Shown here: piece after piece, positions 10,131-59,474 of the stretch | Position numbering within the stretch: position 1 is the first letter of the stretch | Layout: every line of letters starts with the position of its first letter | From: an uncultured Kordia sp. | GTDB taxonomy: Bacteria; Bacteroidota; Bacteroidia; Flavobacteriales; Flavobacteriaceae | DNA length: 64,000 nucleotides | Direction of reading: 5' to 3' | Assembly: GCF_947489565.1 (NCBI RefSeq) | Contig: NZ_CANLEA010000009.1 | Coordinates: 1 to 64,000 of the forward strand | Program-made: the position numbers and the translations under genes | Notes under the pieces: model-generated | Databases searched by the model: none | What the model was told of the DNA's origin: nothing | What the model saw: only the letters and a program-made list of their open reading frames with translations

Positions 10131-11930
10131 TTAGATTGTTTTGTTACGCTTTCTTTCTACTTCCGTTAAGAATACTTTTCGTAAACGTAAGAAGTTTGGC
10201 GTTACTTCTACATATTCATCTTTTTGAATATATTCTAACGCTTCTTCTAATGAAAATTTGATTGCAGGAACAATTTTTGCTTTGTCATCTGCTCCAGAAG
10301 AACGTACGTTTGAAAGTTTTTTCGTTTTCGTAACGTTTACTGTCATATCATCTCTACGAGAGTTTTCGCCAATTACCTGACCTTCGTAAATATCTTCTCC
10401 TGGATCTACAAAGAACTTTCCTCTATCTTGTAATTTGTCAATAGAATATGGAATTGCAGTTCCTTTTTCCATAGATACTAACGAACCATTTTGACGTTCT
10501 GGAATTCCACCACGTAATGGTTGGTATTCTTTATATCTGTGTGCCATGATTGCTTCTCCAGCAGTTGCTGTTAACAATTGGTTACGCAATCCGATGATTC
10601 CTCTTGATGGAATTAAGAATTCGCATACCATACGCTCTCCTTTTGCTTCCATACTTAGCATTTCACCTTTACGAAGTGTTACCATTTCGATAGCTTTTCC
10701 AGATACATGTTCTGGTAAATCGATGGTTAACTCTTCAATTGGCTCACATTTTACACCATCAATTTCTTTGATAATTACTTGTGGCTGACCAATTTGCAAT
10801 TCGTATCCTTCTCTACGCATCGTTTCAATTAGTACTGATAAGTGTAATACACCTCTACCAAATACAATAAATTTATCTGCGCTATCAGTTTCGTTTACAC
10901 GTAAAGCTAAGTTTTTTTCTAGCTCTTTCATTAAACGATCTTTGATGTGACGTGATGTTACAAACTTTCCATCTTTTCCAAAGAAAGGTGAATCGTTAAT
11001 TGTGAACAACATACTCATTGTTGGCTCGTCAATAGCAATTGTTTTTAATCCTTCCGGATTTTCTAAGTCAGCAATTGTATCTCCAATTTCAAAACCTTCC
11101 AAACCAACTATTGCACAAATATCTCCCACTTGGATTTCAGAAACTTTCTTTCTTCCCAAGCCTTCAAATGTGTGCAATTCTTTGATTTTTGATTTGATGA
11201 TTGATTTATCGCGCTTTACTAGAGCAACTTGCATTCCTTCTTTTAATGATCCTCTTTGTAAACGACCAATAGCGATACGTCCTGTAAAAGAAGAATAATC
11301 TAAAGATGTAATCAACATTTGCGTGCTTCCTTCTTCAAATTCTGGTGATGGAATGTGTTCCATTACCATATCTAACAAAGGCTCAATGTTTTCAGTTTCA
11401 TTTTTCCAATCGTCAGACATCCAGTTGTTTTTAGCAGAACCATATACTGCTGGAAAATCTAACTGCCATTCTTCTGCTCCTAATTCGAACATTAGATCAA
11501 ATACTTTTTCATGTACTTCATCAGGCGTACAGTTTTCTTTGTCAACCTTATTAATAACCACACAAGGTTTCAATCCTAAATCAATTGCTTTTTGTAATAC
11601 AAAACGCGTTTGTGGCATTGGACCTTCAAAAGCATCAACTAATAATAAAACTCCATCAGCCATATTCAATACACGCTCTACTTCTCCACCGAAATCGGCG
11701 TGACCAGGTGTATCAATGATATTGATTTTAGTTCCTTTATAGTTTACAGATACATTTTTAGAGGTAATCGTAATTCCACGTTCACGTTCTAAGTCGTTGT
11801 TGTCAAGAATTAAATCTCCTGTATTTTCATTTTCACGAAATAATTGACAGTGATACATTATTTTATCAACCAACGTTGTTTTCCCGTGATCTACGTGCGC
11901 AATTATTGCAATATTTTTAATTGAAGTCAT
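10131..11930 (-). CDS. typA: Translational GTPase TypA/BipA
   Basis: 599 aa, full length for the family. Domains in order: GTPase with G1 AHVDHGKTTL (residues about 10-19), switch region RERGITITSK, G3 DTPGHADFGGE and G4 NKVDKENCTP, then EF-Tu domain 2-like barrel, EF-G domain III/V-like parts (FGRGVLHLSVLIETMRREGYE), and the TypA-specific C-terminal domain. It binds 70S ribosomes in a GTP-dependent way and assists 50S assembly and stress adaptation. It is a single-gene unit with its own -7 element (11953-11960) and a strong terminator (10074-10110). Confidence 0.97.
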   Translation of the reverse strand: MTSIKNIAIIAHVDHGKTTLVDKIMYHCQLFRENENTGDLILDNNDLERERGITITSKNVSVNYKGTKINIIDTPGHADFGGEVERVLNMADGVLLLVDAFEGPMPQTRFVLQKAIDLGLKPCVVINKVDKENCTPDEVHEKVFDLMFELGAEEWQLDFPAVYGSAKNNWMSDDWKNETENIEPLLDMVMEHIPSPEFEEGSTQMLITSLDYSSFTGRIAIGRLQRGSLKEGMQVALVKRDKSIIKSKIKELHTFEGLGRKKVSEIQVGDICAIVGLEGFEIGDTIADLENPEGLKTIAIDEPTMSMLFTINDSPFFGKDGKFVTSRHIKDRLMKELEKNLALRVNETDSADKFIVFGRGVLHLSVLIETMRREGYELQIGQPQVIIKEIDGVKCEPIEELTIDLPEHVSGKAIEMVTLRKGEMLSMEAKGERMVCEFLIPSRGIIGLRNQLLTATAGEAIMAHRYKEYQPLRGGIPERQNGSLVSMEKGTAIPYSIDKLQDRGKFFVDPGEDIYEGQVIGENSRRDDMTVNVTKTKKLSNVRSSGADDKAKIVPAIKFSLEEALEYIQKDEYVEVTPNFLRLRKVFLTEVERKRNKTI

Positions 11931-43673: not shown

Positions 43674-43793
43674 AGGCTTTTTCTTTTATTTAATCAGCAA
43701 CATGACTTACTGACATGATTTTGTTTTGGTATATTTTTTGTTCTAAAATAGTAGTATTTGGAACAAAAAACACAAAACTATTAAAATTTGTGT

Positions 43794-43801
43794 TATGTTT
43801 G
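43794..43801 (+). promoter_or_regulatory. Possible ssrA promoter -7 element
   Basis: TATGTTTG followed by C matches TAnnTTTG. Transcription would start about 36 nt before the mature tmRNA 5' end, requiring 5' processing. No clear -33 was seen. Confidence 0.4.
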
Positions 43802-43844
43802 CTGTCCTTTTTACGATTTAAAAGTAAAAGTTCTTAAACATATT

Positions 43845-44238
43845 GGGGTCGACTGGTTTTGACAGCGAGTCGAATTGAAGTGTAAGCACGTCGAGCGCTG
43901 AGACATAGCTCGTAAATCTCATATTTCACACTTTTTAAATGGCGAAAATAACTACGCTTTAGCTGCCTAATCTGAATTATAGTAGGATAAGCCCAGTTTC
44001 CGTTAGACGGAAAAGCTGAATATCTCCCGGTAGCCCTTGTTGATGGCGACCGATTTAGAGATACCATAAAAGTCAACATCGAAACTGTATAGCTTCGCTA
44101 CAGTTTTTACAACTAAGAAGCTAAGCGAATGGTGGGCGGTTTTTGGTCAGCTATTCGTCGAAAATTAAACAAGAACTAAGCGTGTAGAAAGCATTTTAAT
44201 TGCTTGTTTGGACGAGAGTTCGATTCTCTCCGACTCCA
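43845..44238 (+). ncRNA. ssrA: Transfer-messenger RNA
   Basis: About 394 nt. The ends form the tRNA-like acceptor stem: GGGGTCG at the 5' end pairs with CGACTCC at the 3' end (one G-U), followed by discriminator A at 44238; CCA is not encoded. A T-arm GAGTTCGATTCTC is just before. The tag reading frame at 43941-43970 is GGC GAA AAT AAC TAC GCT TTA GCT GCC TAA, giving GENNYALAA, possibly preceded by Asn (AAT). tmRNA rescues stalled ribosomes and tags the nascent chain for proteolysis. A terminator follows at 44257-44289. Confidence 0.97.
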
Positions 44239-44256
44239 CAAAGTAATTTCTTTATT

Positions 44257-44289
44257 AAAAAATCCTGACAGCAATGTTGGGATTTTTTT
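44257..44289 (+). terminator. ssrA terminator
   Basis: AAAAAATCC pairs with GGATTTTTT around a 14-nt loop, followed by further T. It lies 19 bp after the tmRNA 3' end and just before box array A. Confidence 0.85.
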
Positions 44290-44301
44290 GTTATGATTTT
44301 A

Positions 44302-44369
44302 TACGTACCACTACGTATAACATCCGTATTGCTACTTATTGAAATATTTTTCATTTGACTATATCTTGC
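44302..44369 (+). promoter_or_regulatory. TACGTA box array A and promoter of the kinase operon
   Basis: Four boxes: TACGTA (44302), TACGTA (44312), TCCGTA (44323), TACTTA (44333), i.e. offsets 0, 10, 21 and 31. The -7 element TATCTTGC starts at 44362, exactly 60 bp from box 1. The first kinase ATG is at 44443. No -33 TTTG at the usual distance, so activation by a bound regulator is likely. Confidence 0.7.
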
Positions 44370-44442
44370 GATCAAATAGAAAAAATTATCATCTTAAGAT
44401 TTCGTATTTTTAGTAAATCTTTGATTTAACTTCTACTAAATT

Positions 44443-46251
44443 ATGGTAAAAAAAATAATCCTCTCACTTCTTCTTTTCTTTTGTCTTGGCACGATGTTGT
44501 CTTTTGCTCAACAAGAAAAAGATACTGTAATTCTCAATTTAGAAAGAGAACTAAAAGAAGCTAAAATTGATACTGTAAAAGCCGATATTTTATTCAATAT
44601 AGGTTCACGTTTATTTGGCAGAGATAATCCGCGCGCTAAAAACCTTTTAAACGAAGCCGTAGATTTATTGCCTGAGGCATCTCTAAATAATGGCTTGCGA
44701 GGTCAAATTTACCAATACCTTGCCGCTATTAATAATGATCAAGGAAATTATCCTATTGCTATGACTCAGTTTATAAAAGCAAAAGAGCAATTTGATATTA
44801 CAAACGATTCTCTCCGAATTGCCAACCTACATCACAATATGGCTATTCTTCATAACTTTCAAGGGAATTTTGAACTTGCCAAAGAAAATTTATTCAAATC
44901 AATTCATATCAATACGATCTACAAAGACACGATTAGTCTTGCGCATAATTATAATACTTTGGGTGAAGATTATGGAATGACAAAAAAGCCTGATTCTGCG
45001 CTCTTTTATTTTGATAAATCTAAAAAACTATTTGCTGCATTAAACGATCAAAGAGGATTAAATAATGTAAAAGCACAGTTAGCTAAATTCTATTTAGGAT
45101 TAGGAGATTATAAAAAAAGTATTGCTTTGTTTAAAGAGTGTGTTGATTTTGGTGTTAAAAATGAGATTCCTATTTATCAAATTATCTATTCTAATAAATT
45201 AGCCTGGGCTTACAAAGAAGCTAAGGATTATAAAAATGCATTGAAATACTGCAAACAATCTTTAGATTTAGCATTAAAAAATCAGCATAGACAATGGATT
45301 TTTAATGGATATTTACAAAAAAGCGAAATTGAAGAAGCTATAGGTAATTATAAAGATGCCTATGCTAGTGCTAAGCTTCACAAAATATATTCTGATTCTA
45401 TATTTAATAAAAAAAACATTCGTAAAATAAAGGAACTCGAACTTACGTACGCCTTTAAAAAACAAAAATTAAAAGATAGTTTGCTCTTTGCCAAAGAAAA
45501 AGAATTTGCTGAAGTTGAAATCGAAAATCTGTCCATAAAAAACAAAGTAAAAAATCAATGGTTGCTATTTGGCGGATTAGGATTGCTAACTTTATTTCTA
45601 ATTATATACTTAGTTCGATCTCGTAAATTTGCTATTTCTAAGAAGAAACTTCAAGAACAGTTTTCGCAAGATTTGATCAACGGTCAAGAAGAAGAACGTT
45701 CTCGCCTAGCTAGAGAATTACATGATAGTGTTGGACAAAAATTGATGTTGCTAAGCAAAACCACTAAAAACTTAGGCAATGAAAATGCAGAACAATTGGC
45801 AAGTTCAACCTTAGAAGAAGTCCGCACCATTTCACGTGGTTTGCATCCTTCTAATTTAGAACGTTTGGGACTTACAGAAGCTGTGAATGCCTTGGTATAC
45901 GACATTAACGCAAATACAGACTTATTTTTTACAGAAGAAATTGATAATATAGACAATACACTTTCCAAGGAAGCAGAACTCCATCTATACCGAATTATTC
46001 AAGAGAGTTTAAGCAATATTGTAAAGCATTCAGAGGCAAAAGCTGTGAAAATGGAGATTCAGAAAAAAGAGAATAGTATCAACATTTTAGTAAGTGATAA
46101 TGGTAAAGGCTTTGATATTGAATCAAAATATAAAAACATGAGTTTGGGATTAAAAACTCTGTTTGAACGTGCCAGAATCATTGGAGCTTATATAAACCTA
46201 GTAAGTAACCATAATCAAGGAACAAAATTGATTTTGGAAATTGACTATTAA
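44443..46251 (+). CDS. TPR sensor histidine kinase 1 (NarL-type partner)
   Basis: 602 aa. Signal peptide (about residues 1-22), periplasmic TPR array (about 50-340), TM helix (about 373-392, LLFGGLGLLTLFLIIYLVR), HisKA_3 domain with the phosphoacceptor His in RLARELHDSVGQKL (about 430), and HATPase with NIVKHSEAKAV, LVSDNGKGFDIES and SLGLKTLFERARI. This is the UhpB/NarX/DesK-like class that pairs with LuxR-type response regulators. First of four tandem paralogs followed by the regulator; expressed from array A. Its kinase part is nearly identical in DNA to that of kinase 2. Confidence 0.9.
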   Translation: MVKKIILSLLLFFCLGTMLSFAQQEKDTVILNLERELKEAKIDTVKADILFNIGSRLFGRDNPRAKNLLNEAVDLLPEASLNNGLRGQIYQYLAAINNDQGNYPIAMTQFIKAKEQFDITNDSLRIANLHHNMAILHNFQGNFELAKENLFKSIHINTIYKDTISLAHNYNTLGEDYGMTKKPDSALFYFDKSKKLFAALNDQRGLNNVKAQLAKFYLGLGDYKKSIALFKECVDFGVKNEIPIYQIIYSNKLAWAYKEAKDYKNALKYCKQSLDLALKNQHRQWIFNGYLQKSEIEEAIGNYKDAYASAKLHKIYSDSIFNKKNIRKIKELELTYAFKKQKLKDSLLFAKEKEFAEVEIENLSIKNKVKNQWLLFGGLGLLTLFLIIYLVRSRKFAISKKKLQEQFSQDLINGQEEERSRLARELHDSVGQKLMLLSKTTKNLGNENAEQLASSTLEEVRTISRGLHPSNLERLGLTEAVNALVYDINANTDLFFTEEIDNIDNTLSKEAELHLYRIIQESLSNIVKHSEAKAVKMEIQKKENSINILVSDNGKGFDIESKYKNMSLGLKTLFERARIIGAYINLVSNHNQGTKLILEIDY

Positions 46252-46319
46252 TTCTCTAATACTATGCTAATTACAACCAAAATAAGTCATTCAACCCTAT
46301 AATTTCAAAAATAGAAACA

Positions 46320-48338
46320 ATGAAAAAGATAGTTATACTATTGCTGATGTTTAGCACTATATCTGTGTTTTCGCAAAAAGATTCATTGCAATTAAAAGTA
46401 GATGCATTTACAGCACGTATTCAAAAAGCTGAAGGTCTTGAAAAAATGCTTTTGTTAGATACTTTGTGTGGACTTACCATAGATGTTCCTAGATATAAAT
46501 ATGATTCTATTTCCAAAGTCACCATCGCACATGCTATAAAATTAGATTCTATTAATTTTGCCACAAAACATTTAGCGACACTTCTTTATTTATTTAATAA
46601 GCAATATGAAAGACCAGAAGAAGGACTTCAAATATTTCAGGAATTTCACCAAAAAAAATTACGAATAACGGACACACTTGCACTTGCGTACCTTTACTTA
46701 GAAGCGTCTGAATCTTACTTTAACTCTGGATTTGAAAAAAAATCGATTGTTTGGTACGATAAAGCTATGAAAATGGCATTAAAAGCCAGCGACTCTAGTT
46801 TGCATGGCAGAATTATGGGACACAAAGCCTATGCGCTTTCAGAAATGGGAGATTTTGCAACTGCTTCTACCACATTTCAAAAGGCATTAGTGTTTTTCAT
46901 GAAAAAGAAAGACACGACTAATATCATTAGAATACGCGGAGGTTTATCAATTATTTATGGAAAAAATGAATTCTTTAACGAATGCTTACAAGAACTAGAT
47001 GAAATAGAAAAATTAGCAAAAGCTGCCAATAATATTCCTGCACAAATTGTAACACTGGGCAACATGGCAAACGCATATCATGGACAACAAAATTATGCAA
47101 AAAGTATTGAAAGTAATCATAAAGCATTGCAATTTATTGAGCAATACCCGATGTTTCAAAGTTTGGAAGATTCTCGACTTCTAGGTCAAATTACGAATTA
47201 TTTAGAAGTAGACAGTCTGCAAAAAGCGAAACAAATGTTACTAAGATTAGAAAAGATATTACAAGCTTCTAATAACGATTATAGTATCCAAACAAAATAC
47301 ATGGCTTCATTGGCAAGAATACACTTTAAAGAAAAAAAATACACTAAAGCCAAAGAAGTGGCTATCCAGTTACTTAGTTTATTGAAGAACTCTTCTAGTT
47401 ATGAAGATGATATGGAAGCCAATAATATATTACATAGCATAGAAGAGAAACTTGGAAATAAAGAAGCAGCCTACAACTATTACAAAACATACACCAAAAT
47501 TAAAGATTCCATTGAGTCTGTTAAAAAAACTAATGCGCTCGCCTACTACCAAACATTGTATGAAACGGAGAAAAGAGATGCCACGATTCAACATCAAGAA
47601 GCTGAAATTACATTGTTAGATACCAAAAATAAAATAAAGTCGCAATGGTTATTATTAGGCGGACTTGGATTGCTTTCTCTTTTTATAATTGCATACTTGA
47701 TACGCGCTCAAATGTTTGTAAAAAAACAACAAAAACTCCAAAAGCAATTCTCTCATGATTTAATCAAAGGACAAGAAGAAGAACGTTCTCGCCTAGCAAG
47801 AGAATTACATGATAGTGTTGGACAAAAATTGATGTTGCTAAGCAAAACCACTAAAAACTTAGGCAATGAAAATGCAGAACAACTCGCAAGTTCTACCTTA
47901 GAAGAAGTCCGTACCATTTCAAGAGGCTTGCATCCTTCTAACTTAGAACGTTTGGGACTTACCGAAGCTGTGAATGCATTAGTATATGACATTAATGCGA
48001 ATACGGATTTATTCTTTACGGAAGAAATTGATAATATAGACAATACACTTTCCAAAGAAGCAGAACTACATTTATACCGTATTATTCAAGAGAGTTTAAG
48101 CAATATTGTAAAGCATTCTGGAGCAAAAGCGGTAAAAATGGAAATTCAGAAAAAAGAAAACAGTATTGATGTACTCGTAAGTGATAATGGAAAAGGATTT
48201 GATTTTGAATCGAAATATAAAAACATGAGTTTGGGATTAAAAACCTTGTTTGAACGTGCCAAAATAATTGGTTCAAAATTAATTTTAAAAAGTGAAATAA
48301 ATCAAGGAACTGTAATTAGTTTGAATGTTCCAATTTAA
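46320..48338 (+). CDS. TPR sensor histidine kinase 2
   Basis: 672 aa. Signal peptide (about 1-18), longer periplasmic TPR region than kinase 1, the coiled segment ALAYYQTLYETEKRDATIQH, TM helix (about 440-460), HisKA_3 (LARELHDSVGQKL) and HATPase (VSDNGKGFDFES). The C-terminal about 220 residues differ from kinase 1 at only a few positions, whereas the TPR half is only distantly similar. It lies 68 bp after kinase 1 and ends before kinase 3. Confidence 0.9.
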   Translation: MKKIVILLLMFSTISVFSQKDSLQLKVDAFTARIQKAEGLEKMLLLDTLCGLTIDVPRYKYDSISKVTIAHAIKLDSINFATKHLATLLYLFNKQYERPEEGLQIFQEFHQKKLRITDTLALAYLYLEASESYFNSGFEKKSIVWYDKAMKMALKASDSSLHGRIMGHKAYALSEMGDFATASTTFQKALVFFMKKKDTTNIIRIRGGLSIIYGKNEFFNECLQELDEIEKLAKAANNIPAQIVTLGNMANAYHGQQNYAKSIESNHKALQFIEQYPMFQSLEDSRLLGQITNYLEVDSLQKAKQMLLRLEKILQASNNDYSIQTKYMASLARIHFKEKKYTKAKEVAIQLLSLLKNSSSYEDDMEANNILHSIEEKLGNKEAAYNYYKTYTKIKDSIESVKKTNALAYYQTLYETEKRDATIQHQEAEITLLDTKNKIKSQWLLLGGLGLLSLFIIAYLIRAQMFVKKQQKLQKQFSHDLIKGQEEERSRLARELHDSVGQKLMLLSKTTKNLGNENAEQLASSTLEEVRTISRGLHPSNLERLGLTEAVNALVYDINANTDLFFTEEIDNIDNTLSKEAELHLYRIIQESLSNIVKHSGAKAVKMEIQKKENSIDVLVSDNGKGFDFESKYKNMSLGLKTLFERAKIIGSKLILKSEINQGTVISLNVPI

Positions 48339-48342
48339 AAAT

Positions 48343-50367
48343 ATGATGAAAAAAATACTTGTTTTAGCACTTATCTTACATGGCTATTTTATGGCTGCAC
48401 AAGATGATGTAGAAACAAAAATAAAAACCCTAAAAAATACAATCACAACTTCGGAAGGCATTCAAAAACTGGTTGCATTAGATAGTTTGACAAGTTTGGT
48501 ATTGAACAAAACTGAATATGCATACGATTCTATTGCTAAAGTGACTATTGCATATGCGCTAAAACTAGATTCTGTCAATATTGCTGTAGCTAATACTTCT
48601 TCGCTGATTCGTTATTATGCCTACAGCGGAAATAAAACGAAAGAAGCCATAACAACTTTTGAAGAATTCACTTCAAAAAATATAGTACAAAAAGAACCTT
48701 CGAAACTTGCCAAATTATATCTAAATGGTGCAAATAGTTATTTCTTTAATGGAATGATTAAAAAAGCAATTTCGACATATACTGAAGCGGAAAACTTAGC
48801 ACTTTTAAACAATGACAGTACCACTTATGGACAAGCTAGAGCTTACAAAGCTTCTGCCTATTCTGAAAATGGAGATCAAGTTACGGCCTCTAAATTATTG
48901 AAAGAAACTGCCAATCTCTTCACCCGAAAAAAAGATACCACTAACCTATTAGAATCTCGCATGATTTTATCGACTGTGTACGGTAGAGTGAATTTCACCA
49001 AAGAAGCACAGGAAGAAATGAATGAAATTATTAAGATTGCTAAAGTTTCAAAAAAATACGGTTTACTTTTATCTACCATGTATAATTCTTCTATCAATTA
49101 TCATGAATTGGAACAATACGATAAGCGATTGGCTATCTTGAAAGAAGCATATCGTTATATTACAGATTTACAACTCAAAAATCAACGCGTAGCGCCGCTC
49201 ATCAAATATTCATTATTATCTGCGTATACTACTGCAGACAGTTTACCGCAAGCAACCAAACTTTACCGTGCCATTGAACAAGAAGTAACGGATGAAGAAG
49301 CACTGTATTTTAAAGAAAATTATTTAAAGGCTAAAGCAGACTACTTTATCTTCATAGGAAACTACGACGAAGCACTCAAAATTTCTAAAAAACTATTATC
49401 GAGCAGACTAAAGTCAAAGAATGTCGAAGGAATTTATAAAGCGTATGAAAAGCTATCTGTTTGTTATAAAGAACTCAACGACTACGAAAATGCGTACACA
49501 TATTTCACCAAATATGAAGCGCTCAAAGACTCTGTAAACACCGTTCAAAAAGTAAAGGCGCTTTCGTACTACCAAACCTTGTATGAAACAGAAAAACGTG
49601 ACTTTAAAATAGCTTCTCAGCAAAATGAAATTACGGTGCTGGATGAAAAAAATAAAATCAAACAACAGTGGATTATCTTTGGGAGTTTAGGATTGCTTGT
49701 TACATTTATTATCATCTATTTGATGCGCTCGCAAAAATTTGTAAAAAAACAGCAAGTATTACAAGAACAATTTTCACAAGACTTAATCAAAGGACAAGAA
49801 GAAGAACGTTCTCGATTGGCAAGAGAATTACATGATAGTGTTGGACAAAAACTCATGTTGCTTTCCAAACAAACCAAAAAATTAGAAAATCCAAATATGG
49901 AAAACTTGGCAAGTTCAACCTTAGAAGAAATACGTACCATTTCAAGAGGCTTGCATCCTTCCAATCTAGAACGTTTGGGATTAACCACAGCCATCAATGC
50001 ATTGGTATATGACATCAATGCAAGTACTGATTTATTTTTCACAGAAGAAATTGATAATATAGACAATATACTTTCCAAAGAAGCAGAACTCCATTTATAT
50101 CGTATCATTCAGGAAAGTTTGAGTAATATTGTAAAACATTCAGAAGCGAAAGCGGTAAAAATGGAAATTCAGAAAAACGAAAGCAGTATTGATATACTGG
50201 TAAGTGATAATGGAAAAGGGTTTGACTTTGAATCGAAATTGAAAAATCTAAGTTTAGGTTTAAAAACCTTATTTGAGCGTGCAAAAATATTAAATGCTGT
50301 ATTGAGTTTGGATGGAAAAAAAGGAGAAGGTACTATCATGAAGTTAAGCATCCCGATACAAAATTAA
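48343..50367 (+). CDS. TPR sensor histidine kinase 3
   Basis: 674 aa from the ATG-ATG at 48343 (preferred; an ATG at 48325 overlaps the previous gene by 14 bp and would put six residues ahead of the signal peptide). Signal peptide, TPR array, the segment ALSYYQTLYETEKRDFKIAS, TM helix, HisKA_3 (LARELHDSVGQKLMLLSK) and HATPase (VSDNGKGFDFES). Most similar to kinase 2 in its sensor half. Tightly packed in the operon, with kinase 4 starting 3 bp after its stop. Confidence 0.9.
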   Translation: MMKKILVLALILHGYFMAAQDDVETKIKTLKNTITTSEGIQKLVALDSLTSLVLNKTEYAYDSIAKVTIAYALKLDSVNIAVANTSSLIRYYAYSGNKTKEAITTFEEFTSKNIVQKEPSKLAKLYLNGANSYFFNGMIKKAISTYTEAENLALLNNDSTTYGQARAYKASAYSENGDQVTASKLLKETANLFTRKKDTTNLLESRMILSTVYGRVNFTKEAQEEMNEIIKIAKVSKKYGLLLSTMYNSSINYHELEQYDKRLAILKEAYRYITDLQLKNQRVAPLIKYSLLSAYTTADSLPQATKLYRAIEQEVTDEEALYFKENYLKAKADYFIFIGNYDEALKISKKLLSSRLKSKNVEGIYKAYEKLSVCYKELNDYENAYTYFTKYEALKDSVNTVQKVKALSYYQTLYETEKRDFKIASQQNEITVLDEKNKIKQQWIIFGSLGLLVTFIIIYLMRSQKFVKKQQVLQEQFSQDLIKGQEEERSRLARELHDSVGQKLMLLSKQTKKLENPNMENLASSTLEEIRTISRGLHPSNLERLGLTTAINALVYDINASTDLFFTEEIDNIDNILSKEAELHLYRIIQESLSNIVKHSEAKAVKMEIQKNESSIDILVSDNGKGFDFESKLKNLSLGLKTLFERAKILNAVLSLDGKKGEGTIMKLSIPIQN

Positions 50368-50370
50368 ACA

Positions 50371-52227
50371 ATGAATAAAATCATCGTACATATACGTTGT
50401 ATCCTATTTTGGACATTCGTTCTCTTTTCAGTGAATGTACTTTCGAAAACAAGCACACATAACATTCAAGATTCTTCTATTAAAAATAAAGATACAACCT
50501 TACTACGATTAAACAGTAACTATCAAAAGGCAAAAAATGATTCTATTAAATGCCATGTTTTATTAGAAATTGCTGCGTATCAAATGCACAGAGATGTCGA
50601 TGATGCAAAAAGAGTTTTACAGGAAGCAAACCAAATTTATCAATCGGGCAAGTACAATTTTAAACCAATTACAGAAGCCACAATTCAACGATACTATGGT
50701 ATAACTTATAGACGTTCAGGATATTTTAAAGAAGCACTAGAAGCATATCAAAAAACAAAAGATATTTATATAAAAGTAGGTGATTCTATCGATATTTCTA
50801 GAATAGATCATCTGTTTGCTGTTTTGTACTCCAGCATGGGAGATGATGAAAAAAGTGAAGCATATGCCAGAGAAGCCATTCGAATTAATACACGAATCCA
50901 TGAGAAAAAAGGACTTGCGTTCAATTATAGTTTAATTGGTGATATTTTCAAACAAAAAGAAAACATAGATTCAGCACTATACTATTATCAAAAATCGAAA
51001 CAACTCTTTCAAAAAATAAACAGAGAAGATGGATGGCGCAGAATCAATAGTAAAATAGCTAAAATATTAGAAGAAAACGGAAAGTATGCGGAAGCTTTAA
51101 AATACTATTTTGAAGATTTAGATAATAAAATGAAAGTGGGTTATGATCAAGGAATATCTTCAGCTTACGCTAGAATTTCGAATGTCTATATAAAATTGAA
51201 TAACTATAAAAAGGCAGAAGAGTTTGCAGAAAAAGGGCTGAAAGCTGCGCAAGAAGGCAAACTTATACGAATGATTTCTAGCTCATATTTACAAAAAGCA
51301 AAAGTCTATGAAAAGTTTAAAAATTATAAGGAAGCATATTTAAACAAAGAGCTGTATTATACATATAGAGATTCAACTTTAGATATTGAAAATGTCAAGA
51401 AAATTCAAGAATTAGAACTGACGTATGAATTTCGCAAAGAAAAAGTAAAAGACAGTATGCAATTGGTGAAAGAACGTGAAATTGCAGAAACCAACGTACA
51501 TTTACTTGAAGCAAAAAACAAGCTCAACCGACAATGGCTACTCTTTGGCGGATTGGGATTAGTTGCGTTATTTTCTATTATCTACTTGGTGCGTTCTAGA
51601 AGATTTGCCATCTCAAAACAAACATTGCAAGAACAATTCTCTCATGATTTAATCAAAGGACAAGAAGAAGAACGCTCACGATTGGCCAGAGAATTACATG
51701 ATAGCATAGGACAAAAATTGATGCTACTTTCCAAACAAACCAAAAGAATAGACAATCCAAATATGGAAAATTTGGCAAGTTCAACCTTAGAAGAAGTTCG
51801 CACAATATCACGCGGCTTGCATCCTTCTAACTTAGAACGTTTGGGTCTTACTGAAGCGGTGAATGCTTTGGTATACGATATCAACGCAAATACGGATCTA
51901 TTTTTCACAGAAAATATTGAAAATGTTGATAATCTATTATCCAAAGAATCAGAACTGCATTTATATCGTATAATTCAAGAAAGTTTGAGTAATATTGTAA
52001 AACATTCAGAAGCGAAAGCGGTTACATTAGACATTCAAAAAGAACAGCAAAAAGTAACCGTTTCTATCAATGACAATGGAAAAGGATTTGATATTGACTC
52101 CAAACGAAAAAGTATCAGTTTGGGAATCAAAACCTTATTTGAACGTGCACGTATCATCAATGCTTCTATTGATTTGGAGAGTAACATAGGGAAAGGGACA
52201 AAACTAACCGTAAGTATACCAATATAA
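50371..52227 (+). CDS. TPR sensor histidine kinase 4
   Basis: 618 aa. Signal peptide (about 1-26), TPR array (for example YRRSGYFKEALEAYQKTKD, YKKAEEFAEKGLKAAQE), TM helix (about 385-405), HisKA_3 (LARELHDSIGQKL) and HATPase (INDNGKGFDIDS). The sensor half most resembles kinase 1; the kinase half is the most diverged of the four but still closely similar. It starts 3 bp after kinase 3 and is followed after 2 bp by the response regulator. Confidence 0.9.
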   Translation: MNKIIVHIRCILFWTFVLFSVNVLSKTSTHNIQDSSIKNKDTTLLRLNSNYQKAKNDSIKCHVLLEIAAYQMHRDVDDAKRVLQEANQIYQSGKYNFKPITEATIQRYYGITYRRSGYFKEALEAYQKTKDIYIKVGDSIDISRIDHLFAVLYSSMGDDEKSEAYAREAIRINTRIHEKKGLAFNYSLIGDIFKQKENIDSALYYYQKSKQLFQKINREDGWRRINSKIAKILEENGKYAEALKYYFEDLDNKMKVGYDQGISSAYARISNVYIKLNNYKKAEEFAEKGLKAAQEGKLIRMISSSYLQKAKVYEKFKNYKEAYLNKELYYTYRDSTLDIENVKKIQELELTYEFRKEKVKDSMQLVKEREIAETNVHLLEAKNKLNRQWLLFGGLGLVALFSIIYLVRSRRFAISKQTLQEQFSHDLIKGQEEERSRLARELHDSIGQKLMLLSKQTKRIDNPNMENLASSTLEEVRTISRGLHPSNLERLGLTEAVNALVYDINANTDLFFTENIENVDNLLSKESELHLYRIIQESLSNIVKHSEAKAVTLDIQKEQQKVTVSINDNGKGFDIDSKRKSISLGIKTLFERARIINASIDLESNIGKGTKLTVSIPI

Positions 52228-52229
52228 TT

Positions 52230-52874
52230 ATGGACAAAAAAATTACAATAGTTACCGCAGACGATCATCCAATGCTTTTAAAGGGCTTAACGGAAGAACT
52301 CACTACCAATGGTTATAATGTGATTGGACAAGCTACCAATGGAATTCAAGCCTTAGAACTTGTCTTAAAACTTCAACCTGCCATTGCACTATTAGACATT
52401 GACATGCCAGTCTTAACAGGATTTGAAGTCATTAAAATGGCACGTGAAAAAGGAGCGAAAACCAAATTTATCATTCTATCATTTCACAAAGAATCCTATT
52501 ATATTGTGCAGGCAAAAGCTTTTCAAATTGATGGCTATTTGCTCAAAGAAGATACTTTTTTTGAAATAGAACACTGCATCAACGAAGTCCTAAACGGCAA
52601 TATATACTTTAGCAAATCTATTGACGATCAACCCTTGCAAAATGCCAGTGAGGAATTGAAGCGTTTGAATTTATTGACACTCTCCGAAACTAAAATTCTA
52701 AAACTCATTGCGCAAGAAATCTCCAATCAGGAAATTGCGGATACACTTTCGGTTTCCATTCGAACTATTGAAAAACATCGTAGTAACATCATAGAAAAGT
52801 TAGGACTCAAAAAGGGAAATAACGTATTGACCAATTGGGCTTTGTTAAATCGAAATGTAATTCTTTCACAATAA
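52230..52874 (+). CDS. NarL/FixJ-type response regulator
   Basis: 214 aa. Receiver with acidic pair Asp11-Asp12, phosphoacceptor Asp56 (IALLDIDMP) and conserved Lys in YLLKED; C-terminal LuxR-type HTH (about 145-205) with LTLSETKILKLIAQEISNQE followed by IADTLSVSIRTIEKHRSNI. It is the only full regulator in the kinase operon, 2 bp after kinase 4, so all four kinases are expected to phosphorylate it. LuxR-type dimers commonly bind TAC-GTA-like sites, making it the best candidate for binding the TACGTA arrays, including the one that drives its own operon. Confidence 0.93.
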   Translation: MDKKITIVTADDHPMLLKGLTEELTTNGYNVIGQATNGIQALELVLKLQPAIALLDIDMPVLTGFEVIKMAREKGAKTKFIILSFHKESYYIVQAKAFQIDGYLLKEDTFFEIEHCINEVLNGNIYFSKSIDDQPLQNASEELKRLNLLTLSETKILKLIAQEISNQEIADTLSVSIRTIEKHRSNIIEKLGLKKGNNVLTNWALLNRNVILSQ

Positions 52875-52877
52875 AAA

Positions 52878-52945
52878 TACGTACCAACACGTAGTATTTA
52901 CGAGTTGGTGCTTATAGGATTCGCTTTGCGCACATGTTATCTTGC
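52878..52945 (+). promoter_or_regulatory. TACGTA box array B and promoter of the pseudo-receiver gene
   Basis: Boxes TACGTA (52878), CACGTA (52888), TACGAG (52899) and TGCTTA (52909) at offsets 0, 10, 21 and 31; -7 TATCTTGC at 52938, 60 bp from box 1. It begins 3 bp after the response-regulator stop. The pseudo-receiver ATG follows at 52974. Confidence 0.7.
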
Positions 52946-52973
52946 AGTACTTTGAAACATGAATGAACTGTAG

Positions 52974-53291
52974 ATGAAAATAGTACTCGCACATAGTGAT
53001 ATCAACTACATGAAAAAGTTAAAAATATTCTTCCTAAACAAAGGAGTTACGGATATTCATGCCTTTTCTAATGGCTTTAATGCCTTATCACATATTATCA
53101 AATCCCGAAGTAATATCGTAATAATTGAAGAAACACTGCCTGGTTTAAATGCTACTGACATACAAAATGCACTTGTATTCAAACATCTAAAACCAGAAAT
53201 TATCATCCTCAAACCTTACAGAAATATTCCGCCTGAAAAAGTCATTTCCAAAATAAAATCTGAATTTAGTCTAGACAAAACAACTTTTTAA
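52974..53291 (+). CDS. Stand-alone pseudo-receiver (REC-like, Asp replaced by Glu)
   Basis: 105 aa. The overall pattern matches a CheY-like receiver: strand KIVLAHSD, strand SNIVIIEETLPGL where the phosphoacceptor is expected, and IIILKPYR with the conserved Lys80-Pro. The phosphoacceptor Asp (four residues before Pro) is Glu52, and only one Asp (Asp9) remains of the acidic pair. It therefore probably cannot be phosphorylated and may act as an adaptor, or Glu52 may mimic the phosphorylated state. It is driven by array B and closed by a terminator, so it is a single-gene unit under the same control as the kinases. Confidence 0.7.
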   Translation: MKIVLAHSDINYMKKLKIFFLNKGVTDIHAFSNGFNALSHIIKSRSNIVIIEETLPGLNATDIQNALVFKHLKPEIIILKPYRNIPPEKVISKIKSEFSLDKTTF

Positions 53292-53378
53292 TGCTATGGT
53301 AGCAAATAGTATTGTGTTTAAAATTTTTGAAGACATAAAAGTGTAAGTGTAGGTTAGTTAAGCACATTACTATTTACG

Positions 53379-53411
53379 AAAGGTTATTCACTATTTGAAT
53401 AACCTTTTTTT
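53379..53411 (+). terminator. Terminator of the pseudo-receiver gene
   Basis: AAAGGTTATTC (53379-53389) pairs perfectly with GAATAACCTTT (53397-53407) around a 7-nt loop, followed by T-tract. Confidence 0.9.
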
Positions 53412-53427
53412 ATGACACTAATTTTCA

Positions 53428-53495
53428 TAAGTACTACTACGTAAAATCTACGAGTCATCCCGTATTTTATAAAAATCGCTTCGCTCCTATCTTGC
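53428..53495 (+). promoter_or_regulatory. TACGTA box array C, no protein gene directly downstream
   Basis: Boxes TAAGTA (53428), TACGTA (53438), TACGAG (53449) and CCCGTA (53459) at offsets 0, 10, 21 and 31; -7 TATCTTGC at 53488, again 60 bp from box 1. Downstream there is only a five-codon frame and then a hairpin-like sequence ending in GCGTTTTTTC near 53611. Confidence 0.65.
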
Positions 53496-53501
53496 AACCA
53501 T

Positions 53502-53612
53502 GAAAAATAAGACATAATAAGATTATCAGATTGTTTAGTTTACGATAAAAACGCTGCGATATACTATTTTTTTTCGGGCAAAAAGAAATACGGATATTGT
53601 GGCGTTTTTTCA
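53502..53612 (+). ncRNA. Candidate small RNA from array C promoter
   Basis: A transcript starting about 7 nt after the -7 element would run to AAAAACGC (53547-53554), which can pair with GCGTTTTTT (53602-53610), giving a T-rich end after about 110 nt. The stem is weak and the loop long. No protein frame longer than a few codons is on this strand. It may be a small RNA, a decayed gene, or a long leader of the BspA-like gene. Weak evidence. Confidence 0.25.
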
Positions 53613-53620
53613 TCCCAACA

Positions 53621-53668
53621 CCAAAAACCCAAGACCAAAAACCCAAAACCCAAAACCCAAAACCCAAC
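53621..53668 (-). repeat. GGGTTTT tandem repeat (G-quadruplex-capable on the minus strand)
   Basis: CCC runs at 53642, 53649, 53656 and 53663 with exact 7-bp period, and another at 53628. On the minus strand this is (GGGTTTT)4, sufficient for a three-layer G-quadruplex. It lies between arrays C and D, upstream of the surface-protein gene; the tract produces an artificial frame upstream of the real start. Confidence 0.75.
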
Positions 53669-53673
53669 AAACA

Positions 53674-53741
53674 TACGTACCACTACGTAGTATCTACGTA
53701 TCGTCTCGTATTTCCTAGATTTTACTTCCAAAGTACCTTGC
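53674..53741 (+). promoter_or_regulatory. TACGTA box array D and promoter of the BspA-like gene
   Basis: Boxes TACGTA (53674), TACGTA (53684), TACGTA (53695) and CTCGTA (53705), offsets 0, 10, 21 and 31; -7 TACCTTGC at 53734, exactly 60 bp from box 1. The surface-protein ATG follows at 53765, giving a leader of roughly 20 nt. Confidence 0.7.
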
Positions 53742-53764
53742 ACTTGATTTTTAAACTAAACATC

Positions 53765-56700
53765 ATGAAAGCAAATTTACTTGTCAAAACTTTTATAGTA
53801 TTTCTATCTATGACAGGAATAAACCACGCTATGTATACTAATACAATAGCTAAACACAAAGAATGTAATGATGAAACATCTTTAGAAAACTACCCGTTAA
53901 TAATTACAGGAATTATATCTAAAAACAGTGAATCTTTAGGTGCTATAGAATTGTATGTAGTCAATGATATACCAGATTTAAGTATCTATGCTGTAGGTGT
54001 TGAGACTGGCAACAATGGTTCAGAAGGCGCAGAATACTATTTATCAGGTTCAGCTTCAGCAGGAGATTTTATATATTTAGCAGAATATCCATCTGCATTT
54101 CAAAACTTCTTTGGTTTTGCACCAGATTTTGATATGGGTGGAACAAACGGCTTACTTCCATCGGGAAATAATGCAGTGGAATTATTTGTAAATGTAAACA
54201 GTACACCAACGCTTGTTGATGTTTTTGGGAATCCAAATGAAAACGGATTTGGAACCGCATGGGCATACAAAAATAGTTGGGTGTATCGTAAAACAGGAAC
54301 AGTAGCCAATGGAAGCTTTGTACTAAATGATTGGAGAATTCCTGGTCCAGAAATTATTTCCAGTGTAAGTATTACGAATAGCAATGCTCCTGTACCTTTT
54401 CCAACCGGAACCTATGGACAACCGTATGATGAAATTCCTCCTGTAGCAGTTTGTCAAGACATTACTTTTGAAATCGATCAAGGTAATTTTACAGTAGATG
54501 CGAATCTTATAAATAATGGTTCTTCTGATGATGTTGGAATTACATTTATGAAATTAGACGACAGTTCGTATTTCTGCTCTGACACAGGAGATAATCTAGT
54601 AACTTTAACAGTGTATGATGCTGCTGGAAATAAAGATACCTGTACCGCTACTATTAACATCGTACCAGCAGCACCTCAACTTATTTGCCAGAATATCACA
54701 GTTGATTTAGGTTTTAATGGACAAGCTTCTGTAACATTTTATGACATTACGAATGGAATGAGCGGCGCATGTATTGGCGAAGGAACTCTATTCTATATAT
54801 CTACTACAGATCCAAATAGTGGTGGAACTAGTAATTTATTTGACGGAGCAACGACCACGAATAGTCCAACTGATGATGTACTTGGTGATGGCAATGCACA
54901 ATATTATGAGACATTCACTTTTACTGTACCAGAAGATGGAAACTATCTACCAAGTTTTAATTTTAATTCTTCCACCACAGACGATTTATTATTTGCTTTT
55001 ATAAGCGACCAACCCATAGCTCCTAATACAGCTCCAGCTCCAAGCAGACCTGGATTTTTAGATGGATTTGTATATCAAGCACCTTCAACGTATCTAGGTT
55101 CTTTTAGCAACAACGATGAGGTAGCATTAACTGCTGGAACTACGTATTACATGCAAGTTGCAGTCATAAATCAAGATGACAGTTCATTACTATCTACGGC
55201 AACCTATACTGGCGGTTTTGGAGGTACATCTCAAAATTTAGACGAATATACCTATACTACTGCTGATTTAGGCGATAACACCTTATACGCCTATTTTACA
55301 GACGATTTAGGTCGCATAGCCTCTTGCGCAGCAACAGTTACTGTTGTAAATGCTGATCCTTTTATCACCACTTGGAAAACAGACAATCCAGGAGATTCTA
55401 ATGACAATCAAATCTTATTACCTACGGTACCTGGAGGCAGTTACAACTTTGATGTCGATTGGGGTGACGGAAACTTCGATTATGGAGTCGGAAGTTCTAA
55501 CGTTGTCCATTCGTATACAACACCTGGAACCTACACAGTAAGAATCACAGGTGATTTCCCAAGAATGTATTTTAATGGAGGTGGAGATGCTGAAAAGCTA
55601 CTTACTATTGAACAATGGGGAGATATTGAATGGTCTTCTATGGACAGTGCTTTTGAAGGTTGTTCCAATTTAAACATTACCAATCCAGCAATTGATACTC
55701 CCGATTTATCAAACGTTACGAATATGCAAGACATGTTCTACGATTGTACTTCTTTTAATGGTGATGTCACCAATTGGGATGTAAGCAATGTGCAAGATTT
55801 TAATGAAATGTTTGGCTATTGTGAAGCATTCAATCAACCTATTGGAAACTGGAACATGAGCAGTGCTACAGACTTATCGTATATGTTTTATGAAGCATTG
55901 GCGTTCAACCAACCATTAAACAATTGGAATACAAACAATGTATTGCTTATGGAAGGTGTATTCTCTGAAACAGAATCATTCAATCAAGATTTAAATAATT
56001 GGAATGTTTCAAATGTAACTTCTATGTACGAAATGTTTGATACCGCTGAAGCATTTAATGGAAATATATCTTCTTGGAATGTAAGCAATGTGGAAGATAT
56101 GAGAGATCTGTTTGACGGAGCTTTTGCATTCAATCAAGATATTTCTGGATGGAATGTAAGTAGCGTAACAACTATGGAAAATATGTTTGATGGTGCTGAT
56201 GTATTCAACCAAGATATCAGCAACTGGAATGTAAGCGTTGTAACAGATATGGAATCTATGTTCAATGGTGCAAATGCTTTTAATCAAGACATTGGGAATT
56301 GGAACGTAAGCAATGTTACAAACATGTCAGATATGTTTAGAGGTGCAGACGCATTTGATCAAAACCTTGGAAATTGGGATTTAAGCAATATTGTAGACAC
56401 TGGAAGTTCATCTTCAGGATTGAGAAACATGTTTGGCTCAGGTCCTAGCGGAATTAGTATTTCTCGACCGAATTATGACAGTACATTAATCGGCTGGAAC
56501 ACAGACAGTAGTGGCATTCCTAATGACGGAATTGACGATATTCCTTCTAATATTATATTTGGAGGAGGAAAAAGTAATTATTGTGATAGCGAAGCACAAA
56601 GGCAAAATTTAATAGATACACATAGCTGGTCTATTAATGATCAAGGGAAAGCATGTTTAACATTCAGAGTTAAAGTATATTTACAGGGCGCTACTTTAAA

Positions 56701-57370
56701 TAATGGAGGAGGAAGTTTAAACCAAATGCGAGACGATTTAAGAGTCGCAGGTATACTTCCGACTACAAGTCCTTATCCAGATGCGTTAACCTGTGATCCT
56801 AATATATTTACTGATTTTGATGACGAAGAAGCTGCTGTAGATTGGGTTTGGATGGAATTAAGAGATGCCACAGACAACACAAACATTGTATTTAGTCGCT
56901 CTTTCTTATTGGATCGATTAGGAAATATATATGACAATACTTTAGATACAATTGAACTAAGCGTACCTGATGGTGATTATTATGTAGTTGTAAAGCATCG
57001 CAATCATTTAGGCATTATGAGTGCAACTCCTATGAGCTTAAGTGCTACAAACATTACAACTGTTGATTTCACGGATGGCTCTACTCCAACCTATGGAACC
57101 AACGCGCAAACAACTTTTGGAATGCCAGCAGGTATTATGGGAATGTGGGCAGGAAATGTAAATAATGATACTGTAATACAATATTCAGGGACAACGCCGG
57201 ATTCACCAACAATTCTATCCGAAGTATTAAATGACGCTGGAAACTTCTTGAATTTCACAACATATACTGTAAACGGATATAAAAATTATGACCTCAGATT
57301 TAATCATACGCTGCAATATCACTTTCAAAGTACAATACTTGCTTCTATAAACTACTATATCTATATTTGA
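53765..57370 (+). CDS. BspA-like (DUF285) repeat surface protein with HYR- and PKD-like domains
   Basis: 1201 aa from the ATG at 53765, which begins a signal peptide (about residues 1-27, [20 protein letters not shown]); the frame upstream runs through the GGGTTTT repeat and promoter D and is not coding. Order: an LTD-like N-terminal domain (about 40-200), HYR-like modules (about 210-330), a PKD-like domain ([13 protein letters not shown]), about ten DUF285 repeats of about 24 residues (55690-56450; WNVSNVTNM and AFNQDIGNW units), and a C-terminal domain including [20 protein letters not shown]. The second expected unit of that last domain is degenerate, and no T9SS sorting signal is present. 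It is likely secreted or surface-exposed and regulated by array D. Confidence 0.82.
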
Positions 57371-57383
57371 GAAAAAGCTTTGC

Positions 57384-59474
57384 ATGCGCGTTTTTCAACT
57401 ATTTTTTCTGTCTATTTTTTTATTGCTGATTTCTTGTTCAGAAACCACAAAAGAAACACACAAATACACCAATGCTCTGGTCAATGAGTCAAGTCCGTAT
57501 TTGTTACAACATGCGCACAATCCTGTAAATTGGCAACCTTGGAACTCCAAAATTCTAGCAAAAGCGAAAAAAGAAAATAAACTCATCTTATTTTCCATTG
57601 GCTACGCTTCTTGTCATTGGTGTCATGTCATGGAAAAAGAAACTTTTGAAGATGAAGCAGTCGCAAAATTCATGAACGAAAACTTTATCAATGTAAAAGT
57701 CGATCGTGAAGAACATCCGGATATTGATAAAACCTATATCAAAGCTGTGCAACTTATGACAGGAAATGCAGGCTGGCCACTAAATTGCATCACACTTCCA
57801 AGTGGCGAACCTGTTTGGGGCGGAACATATTTTACCAAAGAAAATTGGATGAATTCGCTGGAACAAATCGTTAAAATTCAAAAAGAAAATCCTGAAAAAA
57901 CAATCGAATTTGCACGAGCACAAGCCAAACGTTTGAATTCGCTACAGACATTTACAGATAAAGACATAGATCTTTCTAAAGTTTTAACAGATAGTATCAT
58001 CCACACATGGAAAAAAGAGTTGGATACAGATGCTGGTGGACTTAAAGAAAATGAAAAATTTCCAAGACCTAGCAATTACAATTTTCTACTTCGCTACACA
58101 GCTATTAAAAAAAGTGAAGAGCTAATGTTTCATGTGAATGGCACGCTTCAAAGTATTGCCAATCGTGGATTGTTTGATCATATAGAAGGCGGATTTGCAC
58201 GTTATACAATCGATAAAGATTGGAACATTCCGCATTTTGAAAAGATGTTGTACGACAATGCGCAATTAATTTCCCTGTTTTCATATGCCTACCAAATTCA
58301 CAAAAATGAAACTCATAAAGATGTAGTATATCAAACCTTAGATTTTATTCAAAAACAACTAACGCGCAAAGACCATTTGTTGTATGCTTCACTCAATGCT
58401 GATAGCGAAAATGAAGAAGGCAATATGGAAGAAGGCGCTTATTATGTTTGGGAAAAAGAAAAACTCAAAGAAGCAATCAAAGAAGAGTTTGTGCTATTCT
58501 CTGACTATTTTGGGATTGATACAATTCCAACGACGGAAGACGGGAAACATGTGTTGGTAAAACAATATTCCGATTCGAATTTCATTCAGAAACACGGATT
58601 GACTCTACCAGAATTACAACAAAAAATTGCACAATGGAAAGCAATTCTTTTAGAGGAACGAAAAAAGAGAGTAGCTCCTGAAACAGATACCAAAGTAATT
58701 ACTTCGTGGAATGCCTTGATGTTAAAAGCATACGCAGATGCATACAAAGTTTTTGGTGATGAAAATTTAAAAACGAAAGCAATCAATACTGCAAATTCGA
58801 TCAAAGAAAACTTGATTACAGACGATTGGAAAGTCTTGCGAAGTCTAGAAAATCAGAATATTAATGGTTACTTAGAAGATTATGCTTATTTGATTGATGC
58901 GTTTGTAGCAGTATATCAAATTACCTTTGATGAACAATGGCTGAACCATGCCAAATCATTGACAGAATATGCGATTGCTCATTTTTACGATGCAGAAAAA
59001 GAGCTTTTTGCTTTTTCGGAAACAACTGCCAAAGGACTTGCTTTTAAAGAGTTTGATGTAGAAGATGGCGTAATGCCTTCCGCAAATTCTGTAATGAGTC
59101 ACAACTTATTCAAACTAGGACACTATTTTGGCAATGAGGATTTCTTATCGAAAAGTAAAAAAATGCTACAGCGTGTGTTGCCAGATGCAATTGCGTATCC
59201 GTATTTATACGCCAATTGGTTGCAGCTGTATCTAAACGTATCCAATCCGTATTATGAAGTAGTAATCAATGGAAAAGATGCCATCGCGAAAGCCAAAGAA
59301 TTACATCAAAACTATTTACCAAATATCATTCTTTGCGGAAGCACCACTGAAAGTACATTGCCATTGTTAGAAAATCGTTTTTACGAAGACAAAACTTTTA
59401 TCTATGTCTGTGTGAATAGAGCGTGTAAATTGCCCACAGAAAGTGTAGAAAAAGCAATTTCGTTAATGAAATAG
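57384..59474 (+). CDS. DUF255 thioredoxin-fold lipoprotein (YyaL/SPATA20-like)
   Basis: 696 aa. SPII signal with LLISC (Cys18). The thioredoxin-like domain carries Cys77-His-Trp-Cys80 in [13 protein letters not shown], preceded by NPVNWQPW, and [20 protein letters not shown] follows. The C-terminal two thirds are an alpha/alpha toroid of the N-acylglucosamine epimerase-like type ([32 protein letters not shown]). Family: DUF255/YyaL, function poorly known. As a lipoprotein it would work in the periplasm, unlike cytoplasmic members. Starts 13 bp after the BspA-like gene and may be read from the same transcript. Confidence 0.88.

Follow-up and report, generated by a model that had tools for sequence, protein, structure and literature searches.

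A 64,000-nucleotide stretch of DNA from an uncultured Kordia sp. (GCF_947489565.1, contig NZ_CANLEA010000009.1, positions 1-64,000 of the forward strand; hereafter the window) contains four copies of a promoter array, together with genes for four TPR sensor histidine kinases, a NarL/FixJ-type response regulator, a pseudo-receiver and a BspA-like surface protein (Table 1). The arrays begin at 44302, 52878, 53428 and 53674. Each comprises four boxes close to TACGTA at offsets 0, 10, 21 and 31, followed at exactly +60 by a -7 promoter element of the form TAyCTTGC (TATCTTGC, TATCTTGC, TATCTTGC and TACCTTGC in arrays 1, 2, 3 and 4, respectively). The agreement of the boxes with TACGTA is imperfect, and boxes 2-4 of array 2 read CACGTA, TACGAG and TGCTTA. 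Read directly, these positions are as the initial annotation had given them; the arrays precede the kinase/regulator operon, the pseudo-receiver, a predicted gene-less transcript and the surface protein. Here we consider which protein is likely to act at these arrays, and how.

Table 1. Features of the window. Palindromes are listed as distal, then proximal; E values refer to R1, a sequence-only model of 26 arrays. TSS, transcription start site; HTH, helix-turn-helix.
Feature	Position	Strand	Remarks
tmRNA gene ssrA, left neighbour of cassette	43845..44239	+	Rfam tmRNA match
Putative inserted cassette	44240..57317	.	Comparison with congener G004
Array 1	44302..44338	+	Palindromes 44302-44317, 44323-44338; before kinase/regulator operon; E 8.3e-12
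Array 1 -7 element TATCTTGC	44362..44369	+	SM5-type class per PMC9723704; predicted TSS ~44374
TPR sensor histidine kinase 1 (602 aa)	44443..46251	+	Domain scans
TPR sensor histidine kinase 2 (672 aa)	46320..48338	+	Domain scans
TPR sensor histidine kinase 3 (680 aa)	48325..50367	+	Domain scans
TPR sensor histidine kinase 4 (618 aa)	50371..52227	+	Domain scans
NarL/FixJ-type response regulator (214 aa, receiver + GerE HTH)	52230..52874	+	Proposed array ligand; Pfam, linkage
Array 2	52878..52914	+	Palindromes 52878-52893, 52899-52914; starts 3 bp past regulator stop codon; E 3.5e-11
Array 2 -7 element TATCTTGC	52938..52945	+	Predicted TSS ~52950
Pseudo-receiver (105 aa)	52974..53291	+	Predicted receiver fold; IIEETLP without phospho-acceptor Asp; no HTH
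Array 3	53428..53464	+	Palindromes 53428-53443, 53449-53464; before predicted gene-less transcript; E 2.8e-13
Array 3 -7 element TATCTTGC	53488..53495	+	Predicted TSS ~53500
Predicted short gene-less transcript	53500..53613	+	Terminator-like hairpin at end; z -3.2; no Rfam match
Array 4	53674..53710	+	Palindromes 53674-53689, 53695-53710; before DUF285 surface-protein gene; E 1.9e-14
Array 4 -7 element TACCTTGC	53734..53741	+	Predicted TSS ~53746, 19 nt before ATG at 53765
DUF285/PARCEL-repeat (BspA-like) surface protein (1201 aa)	53765..57370	+	Domain scans (scanned from 53768)

A degenerate array pattern with up to three mismatches, run against the whole 6.42-Mb genome, found the four window arrays at 0 mismatches, together with the mirror image of each on the opposite strand, and one further site with 2 mismatches. 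Reversed as a control, the pattern gave one match. The fifth array (G000:C2:288955-289022, minus strand of contig C2) also carries TATCTTGC at +60 and lies 23 nt before the gene for a 1247-aa protein with DUF285 repeats, of the same family as the surface protein of the window. Scored with a matrix built from 20 arrays of other genomes (L013-L019), own arrays excluded, the four window arrays are the top positions on the plus strand (45.9-58.1), the next scoring -5.4, and no position in 100 dinucleotide-shuffled windows exceeds 6.3. Of 107 distinct matches to the array alone in the loci of the comparison set (both strands, mirror images counted), 43 have TAnnTT[GT][GC] at offset 60 and at most five have it at any other offset, a count that leans towards 60 because many loci had been retrieved with a model of which the -7 element was part.

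Column counts over 25 arrays indicate that the four boxes stand where they had been placed, not as four independent units but as the halves of two palindromes. Boxes 1 and 2, and likewise boxes 3 and 4, form 16-bp inverted repeats with a 7-2-7 layout, approximately TAMGTAC-YR-GTACGTA for the distal and TAMGWRY-YR-nYnCKTA for the proximal palindrome. The central step is Y-R in both palindromes of all 25 arrays, dyad similarity ranges over 0.72-1.0 (distal) and 0.48-1.0 (proximal), and the palindrome centres are 21 bp apart. NarL sites of the 7-2-7 type are described as inverted heptamers of 16 bp in all with a 2-bp centre, the napF site being given at -40 to -49 (PMC4549865). The regulator encoded at 52230 has the NarL domain order, a receiver (Response_reg, 4.2e-19) followed by a GerE HTH (3.5e-11); its best solved relative is NarL, and its phospho-acceptor Asp is present, with LLDIDMP aligned to LLDLNMP of NarL. 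Like the NarL sites, the palindromes begin and end with TA; they differ in their heptamer, TAMGTAC as against the C-rich heptamer of an engineered NarL site (PMC4549865), and in being paired at a fixed 21-bp pitch and a fixed distance from the -7 element.

The arrays recur alongside the regulator in other genera. Orthologs of the regulator 81-85% identical to it are found in seven genomes (L013-L019: two Psychroserpens, two Winogradskyella, one Lacinutrix, strain ALC-1 and one uncultured Flavobacteriaceae), and arrays with a -7 element at +60 lie beside all seven. R1 matches at E <= 1e-6 are confined in each of these genomes to one contig, over ~3-40 kb. In all eight genomes, including that of the window, an array precedes a gene for a TPR histidine kinase that itself lies upstream of the regulator gene (domains confirmed), and the genes downstream of arrays fall into three classes, TPR kinase, pseudo-receiver and surface protein.

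The linkage extends through the family. In a sample of 397 family genomes, searched with R1 under stricter filters, 12 have an array at E <= 1e-5, 19 have a regulator at least 59% identical, and nine have both; this co-occurrence (9/19 versus 3/378) has a Fisher p of 3e-11, or 5e-10 without the own genome. Eleven array-bearing family genomes remain when the own one is set aside, none of them used to train R1. In 10, the matched regulator homolog is followed on its strand by an array 13-530 bp to its 3' side, and these 10 include G434 and G236, whose homologs are just 46-48% identical. Further regulator loci (L110-L138, n = 29) were scored with the matrix from the 25-array column counts, which includes the five own arrays and also served in classing the genes downstream of arrays. 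An array scoring at least 20 lies downstream in 15, down to ~51% regulator identity (eight of the 15 belong to genomes already counted), and weaker, recognisable arrays occur at four more (L128, L131, L132 and L136). Beyond the family, a class-wide sample of 395 genomes, partly of the same family and searched under the stricter filters, gave a match at E <= 1e-5 in the own genome only. Enrichment of the pattern in related genomes, by which the initial annotation had proposed to be judged, is therefore seen beside all seven close orthologs and 3' of distant homologs.

Taken with the type of site, this genetic linkage supports the regulator encoded at 52230 as the ligand of the arrays, including the one before its own operon. 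Each array is likely to be an operator for this regulator, bound by two dimers on tandem palindromes and activating the promoters of the kinase/regulator operon, the pseudo-receiver, the short transcript and the surface protein. Several observations weigh against this interpretation. In G124, which is array-positive, the array stands close to a contig start with no regulator homolog next to it. Ten of the 29 further loci lack an array, one of them (L130) keeping a single palindrome, and among the loci that are most distant (L131-L133, L135 and L136) conservation of box 3 is poor. None of 17 Aequorivita loci (L020-L036, regulator 62-66% identical) has an array near the regulator, and the Aequorivita and other array-less homologs have the same or nearly the same recognition helix. 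The proximal palindromes are less symmetric than the distal ones, and the sign of an activator is deduced from site position alone.

The recognition helix (RT[IV]EKHRSNI and close variants) was rejected as a predictor of arrays, being common to array-less homologs; the assignment of the ligand therefore rests on linkage and not on helix identity. As the presence of arrays does not follow from the HTH alone, they could also be bound by other regulators that share this helix. Some other DNA-binding protein, for instance a paralogous NarL-type regulator encoded elsewhere, might then be the ligand, with the 52230 regulator a mere neighbour or target. The own genome offers 112 regulator-like candidates in a loose first look, though one match only at E <= 1e-30. 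We consider such a ligand improbable, as the arrays track the 52230-type regulator across genera even at ~50% identity and the own genome yielded only a single full array beyond the cassette. The regulon of the 52230 regulator itself appears to be small. The initial annotation had suggested an undescribed regulon, and arrays do precede kinase, pseudo-receiver and surface genes, but nearly all of them are local to the cassette. A broad regulon is unsupported: an R1 search of the own genome, in which 150 of 6290 first-look candidates were scored, gave five full arrays, four of them in the cassette.

Some related loci may be mentioned here. With 11 array matches at E <= 1e-5, spread over several contigs, and three regulator homologs 60-62% identical, the family genome G138 (L100-L105) holds a large version of the same array/regulator system. 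Palindromes of the TACGTA type also occur singly, 21-23 bp ahead of a -7 element, at L054, L061, L063 and L142, including sites before pfk-like genes in two Aequorivita genomes; those read have no common gene set, and they may belong to another regulator. In the Aequorivita locus L023, the regulator follows a 954-aa gene that is sensor-kinase-like by eye, with no array-type surface gene adjacent.

Transcription start site mapping in F. psychrophilum has described two boxes at -12 to -5, TAnnTTTG (sigma-A) and TAnnTTGY (motif SM5), and mutagenesis has confirmed that the SprB adhesin operon of that species is transcribed in part from an SM5 promoter (PMC9723704). The -7 element of the arrays is present at its fixed distance as first noted, but its class has to be corrected: TAyCTTGC matches the SM5 box and not the sigma-A box, and TAnnTTGY is found in all five own arrays. 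Across the eight genomes, 23 of 25 non-kinase arrays have a TTGY-type element (two begin GA), whereas seven of eight kinase-gene arrays have TAnnTTT[GA], the exception being the kinase array of the window. The corresponding p value of 6e-5 is optimistic, because arrays of related genomes are not independent; three of 36 near-genome rows (two minus-strand mirror images and the decayed array at L019 10649) were dropped from the count. In more distant genomes the -7 types are mixed. The arrays differ from F. psychrophilum SM5 promoters in that the kinase-gene arrays of all seven relatives carry the TAnnTTTG-like type, and in having a putative operator, none being described upstream of SM5 promoters in the parts of the source consulted (PMC9723704).

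Because the F. psychrophilum rule puts the -7 box at -12 to -5, offset 72 of the arrays would correspond to +1. If transcription starts as it does in that species, the palindrome centres would lie near -43.5 and -64.5. The proximal position is close to the spacing of class II activators, and the distal one is where class I activators sit. The arrays end 23 bp before the -7 element, and the sites overlap neither this element nor the predicted start. Offsets 37-39 are T-rich, but no TTG-like -33 element is conserved; the promoter therefore looks activator-dependent.

From this arrangement we infer a mechanism in which the TPR kinases would sense an envelope or protein signal and phosphorylate the 52230 regulator. 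Two phosphorylated dimers would bind the two tandem palindromes, whose centres, two helical turns apart, would bring them to one face of the DNA. The proximal dimer would abut RNA polymerase in a class II-like manner and the distal dimer would occupy a class I position. Together they could stand in for a good -33 element and recruit RNA polymerase to a -7 element of the TAnnTTGC (SM5) or TAnnTTTG type. The signal would then induce expression of the kinases and of the regulator itself, together with that of the pseudo-receiver, the short transcript and the large surface proteins. The sign of regulation is not readable from sequence, and autoregulated regulators are often repressors; a regulator that represses the array promoters has, in our estimation, a slightly smaller chance of being correct than a different ligand has, given that the sites stop clear of the -7 element and predicted start and that their distance to the -7 element is fixed.

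The product of the 53765 gene has DUF285 repeats (309.8 bits against a cut-off of 25; TIGR02167, 113 against 30) and no Por_Secre_tail in a Pfam scan. Other array-preceded surface proteins are ~250 to >3000 aa long, several being open at the end of the locus, and start like signal peptides by eye; those scanned have DUF285, HYR, C-type lectin, P-proprotein, PKD or Por_Secre_tail domains. The eight genomes have one to five such genes each, and in 12 of 17 surface arrays the ATG of the first long open reading frame (ORF) lies 22-25 nt past the -7 element (by script). Many surface-gene arrays have in common a transcribed leader, approximately ACATGATTTAAAA..TAATCATGAAAGCAAAAACCCCTTTA, with a start MKAKTPLI. 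It is seen at 53742-53790 of the window, at L015 11192-11236, L017 11208-11240 and L093, and from L016 17596 on. The leader persists even where the gene makes no use of it, in L093 as a short ORF that stops, in a TAATG, at the following start, and in L017 as a CCCCTTTAA block without ATG. Block exchange or a leader peptide are possible explanations of this leader.

It might accordingly be asked whether the 68-bp module has been kept by copying of promoter-plus-leader blocks along with surface genes, and not by constraint on the sites. Shared leaders, often starting MKAKTPLI, would fit such copying, as would the spacer sequence common to the promoters of the two own DUF285 genes. The initial annotation had argued for constraint over recent duplication, and for the five own arrays this stands: mean identity is 71% at offsets 0-36, 38% at offsets 40-59 and 30% upstream, where chance is 28%. 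It stands less well for the two DUF285 promoters, which share more (55% in the spacer, 62% downstream) and may be paralogous. Copying as the general explanation is nevertheless very unlikely: own spacers are not much above chance while the boxes are kept, the leaders of kinase and pseudo-receiver arrays differ, and the spacing is retained at ~50% regulator identity.

The segment that holds the arrays, the kinases, the regulator, the pseudo-receiver and almost the whole DUF285 gene is best read as an insert, because homology to the congener G004, the best ssrA match (95%), breaks at 44239 and resumes at 57318. In G004 ~290 bp between these points are unmatched, and a Thioredox_DsbH-type gene within 360 bp after ssrA is 84% identical over 380 aa to the window gene beginning at 57384. 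None of 10 congeners has a full array at R1 E <= 1e-5, the nearest being a weak partial match in G007 (E 6.7e-4, model positions 13-60), and their best regulator homologs are at most 53% identical, as against 81-85% in L013-L019. The cassette therefore looks horizontally acquired, to judge by these comparisons; a loss from G004 would account for that junction, yet it would leave the absence from the other nine congeners unexplained. Extra DNA between ssrA and its neighbouring gene is seen relative to one of the 10 congeners, G004, the other nine having no DsbH-type gene within the 1.5 kb fetched 3' of ssrA. With up to 3 mismatches allowed, the ssrA 3' end occurs once in the window, with no second (att) copy, and the seven main cassette ORFs scanned include no integrase or recombinase. 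That the palindromes are recombination sites for the exchange of surface genes, which do vary between genomes in a cassette that looks mobile, is highly improbable given the lack of a recombinase among those ORFs, the promoter -7 element at a fixed distance and the arrays before kinase genes.

More tentatively, and with some doubt, the cassette may be regarded as a mobile self-contained regulon, a two-component system travelling with operator-tagged surface genes, in which effectors would be expressed from an SM5-type promoter and the sensors of the relatives from a sigma-A-type one. If so, a surface gene landing behind an array-plus-leader block would fall under the control of the system, and lineages would therefore build differing surface repertoires on one conserved switch.

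In function, the nearest described system appears to be FimS-FimR of Porphyromonas gingivalis, in which a TPR-repeat sensor kinase and a response regulator govern a surface fimbria cluster (PMC5706477). Kinases 1, 2 and 4 match the NCBIfam FimS model weakly, at 45.9, 17.7 and 39.5 bits, far short of its equivalog cut-off of 600 bits. The cassette also differs in having several kinases and an output of DUF285, HYR, lectin and type IX secretion system (T9SS) proteins, not fimbriae. The surface protein of the window carries PARCEL repeats, for which horizontal spread has been proposed; the words promoter, upstream and response regulator are absent from the main text of that source (PMC2996958).

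A literature search by titles and the first part of abstracts, with most subscription journals outside its coverage, found no paper on the array operator or its regulon. The parts are of known kinds, while the fixed two-palindrome operator, its family-wide linkage to this regulator and the seemingly mobile surface cassette are undescribed to the extent searched. To our knowledge, response-regulator operators in Bacteroidota have been little mapped, and here an operator is defined to the base and tied by linkage across genera to one specific regulator. It predicts which large adhesin-like T9SS/DUF285 proteins switch together, offers a test of activator action at unusual Bacteroidota -7 promoters, and provides a marker for surface-protein repertoires that travel with their own switch.

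Finally, the composition of the cassette varies. Four TPR histidine kinases precede the regulator in the window; between array and regulator there are seemingly two in L013 and one in L019. The pseudo-receiver has no Pfam match and a weak match to the PorX receiver, yet its structure prediction gives a receiver fold (pLDDT 84) with receiver domains as best PDB matches. It has IIEE where the regulator has LLDID, and it could compete for the kinases or the regulator. A shortened copy of the regulator was considered and not shown, pairwise BLAST giving no significant match; in the distant relatives G120 and G378 the slot holds a full regulator-like protein of 218-219 aa, which combines a GerE HTH with a receiver match below threshold. 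The gene lies 3' of the regulator in most of the eight genomes; it is absent in L013 and looks decayed by eye in L018 and L019, with an apparent frameshift (L018 ~10740-10830) or without a usual start codon (L019 ~10740-11080, where the array at 10649 is degenerate too). An Rfam scan of 43700-58000 found tmRNA only. The predicted start of the gene-less transcript coincides with the A of ATG AAA AAT AAG ACA TAA. Roughly the last 17 codons of the DUF285 gene (57318-57370) fall within flanking sequence that G004 also has, and the gene may therefore have lost its original 3' end at the junction. A second array-driven predicted gene-less transcript, with a terminator-like hairpin recognised by eye and, again by eye, no obvious likeness to that of the window, is seen at L019 11203-11352.

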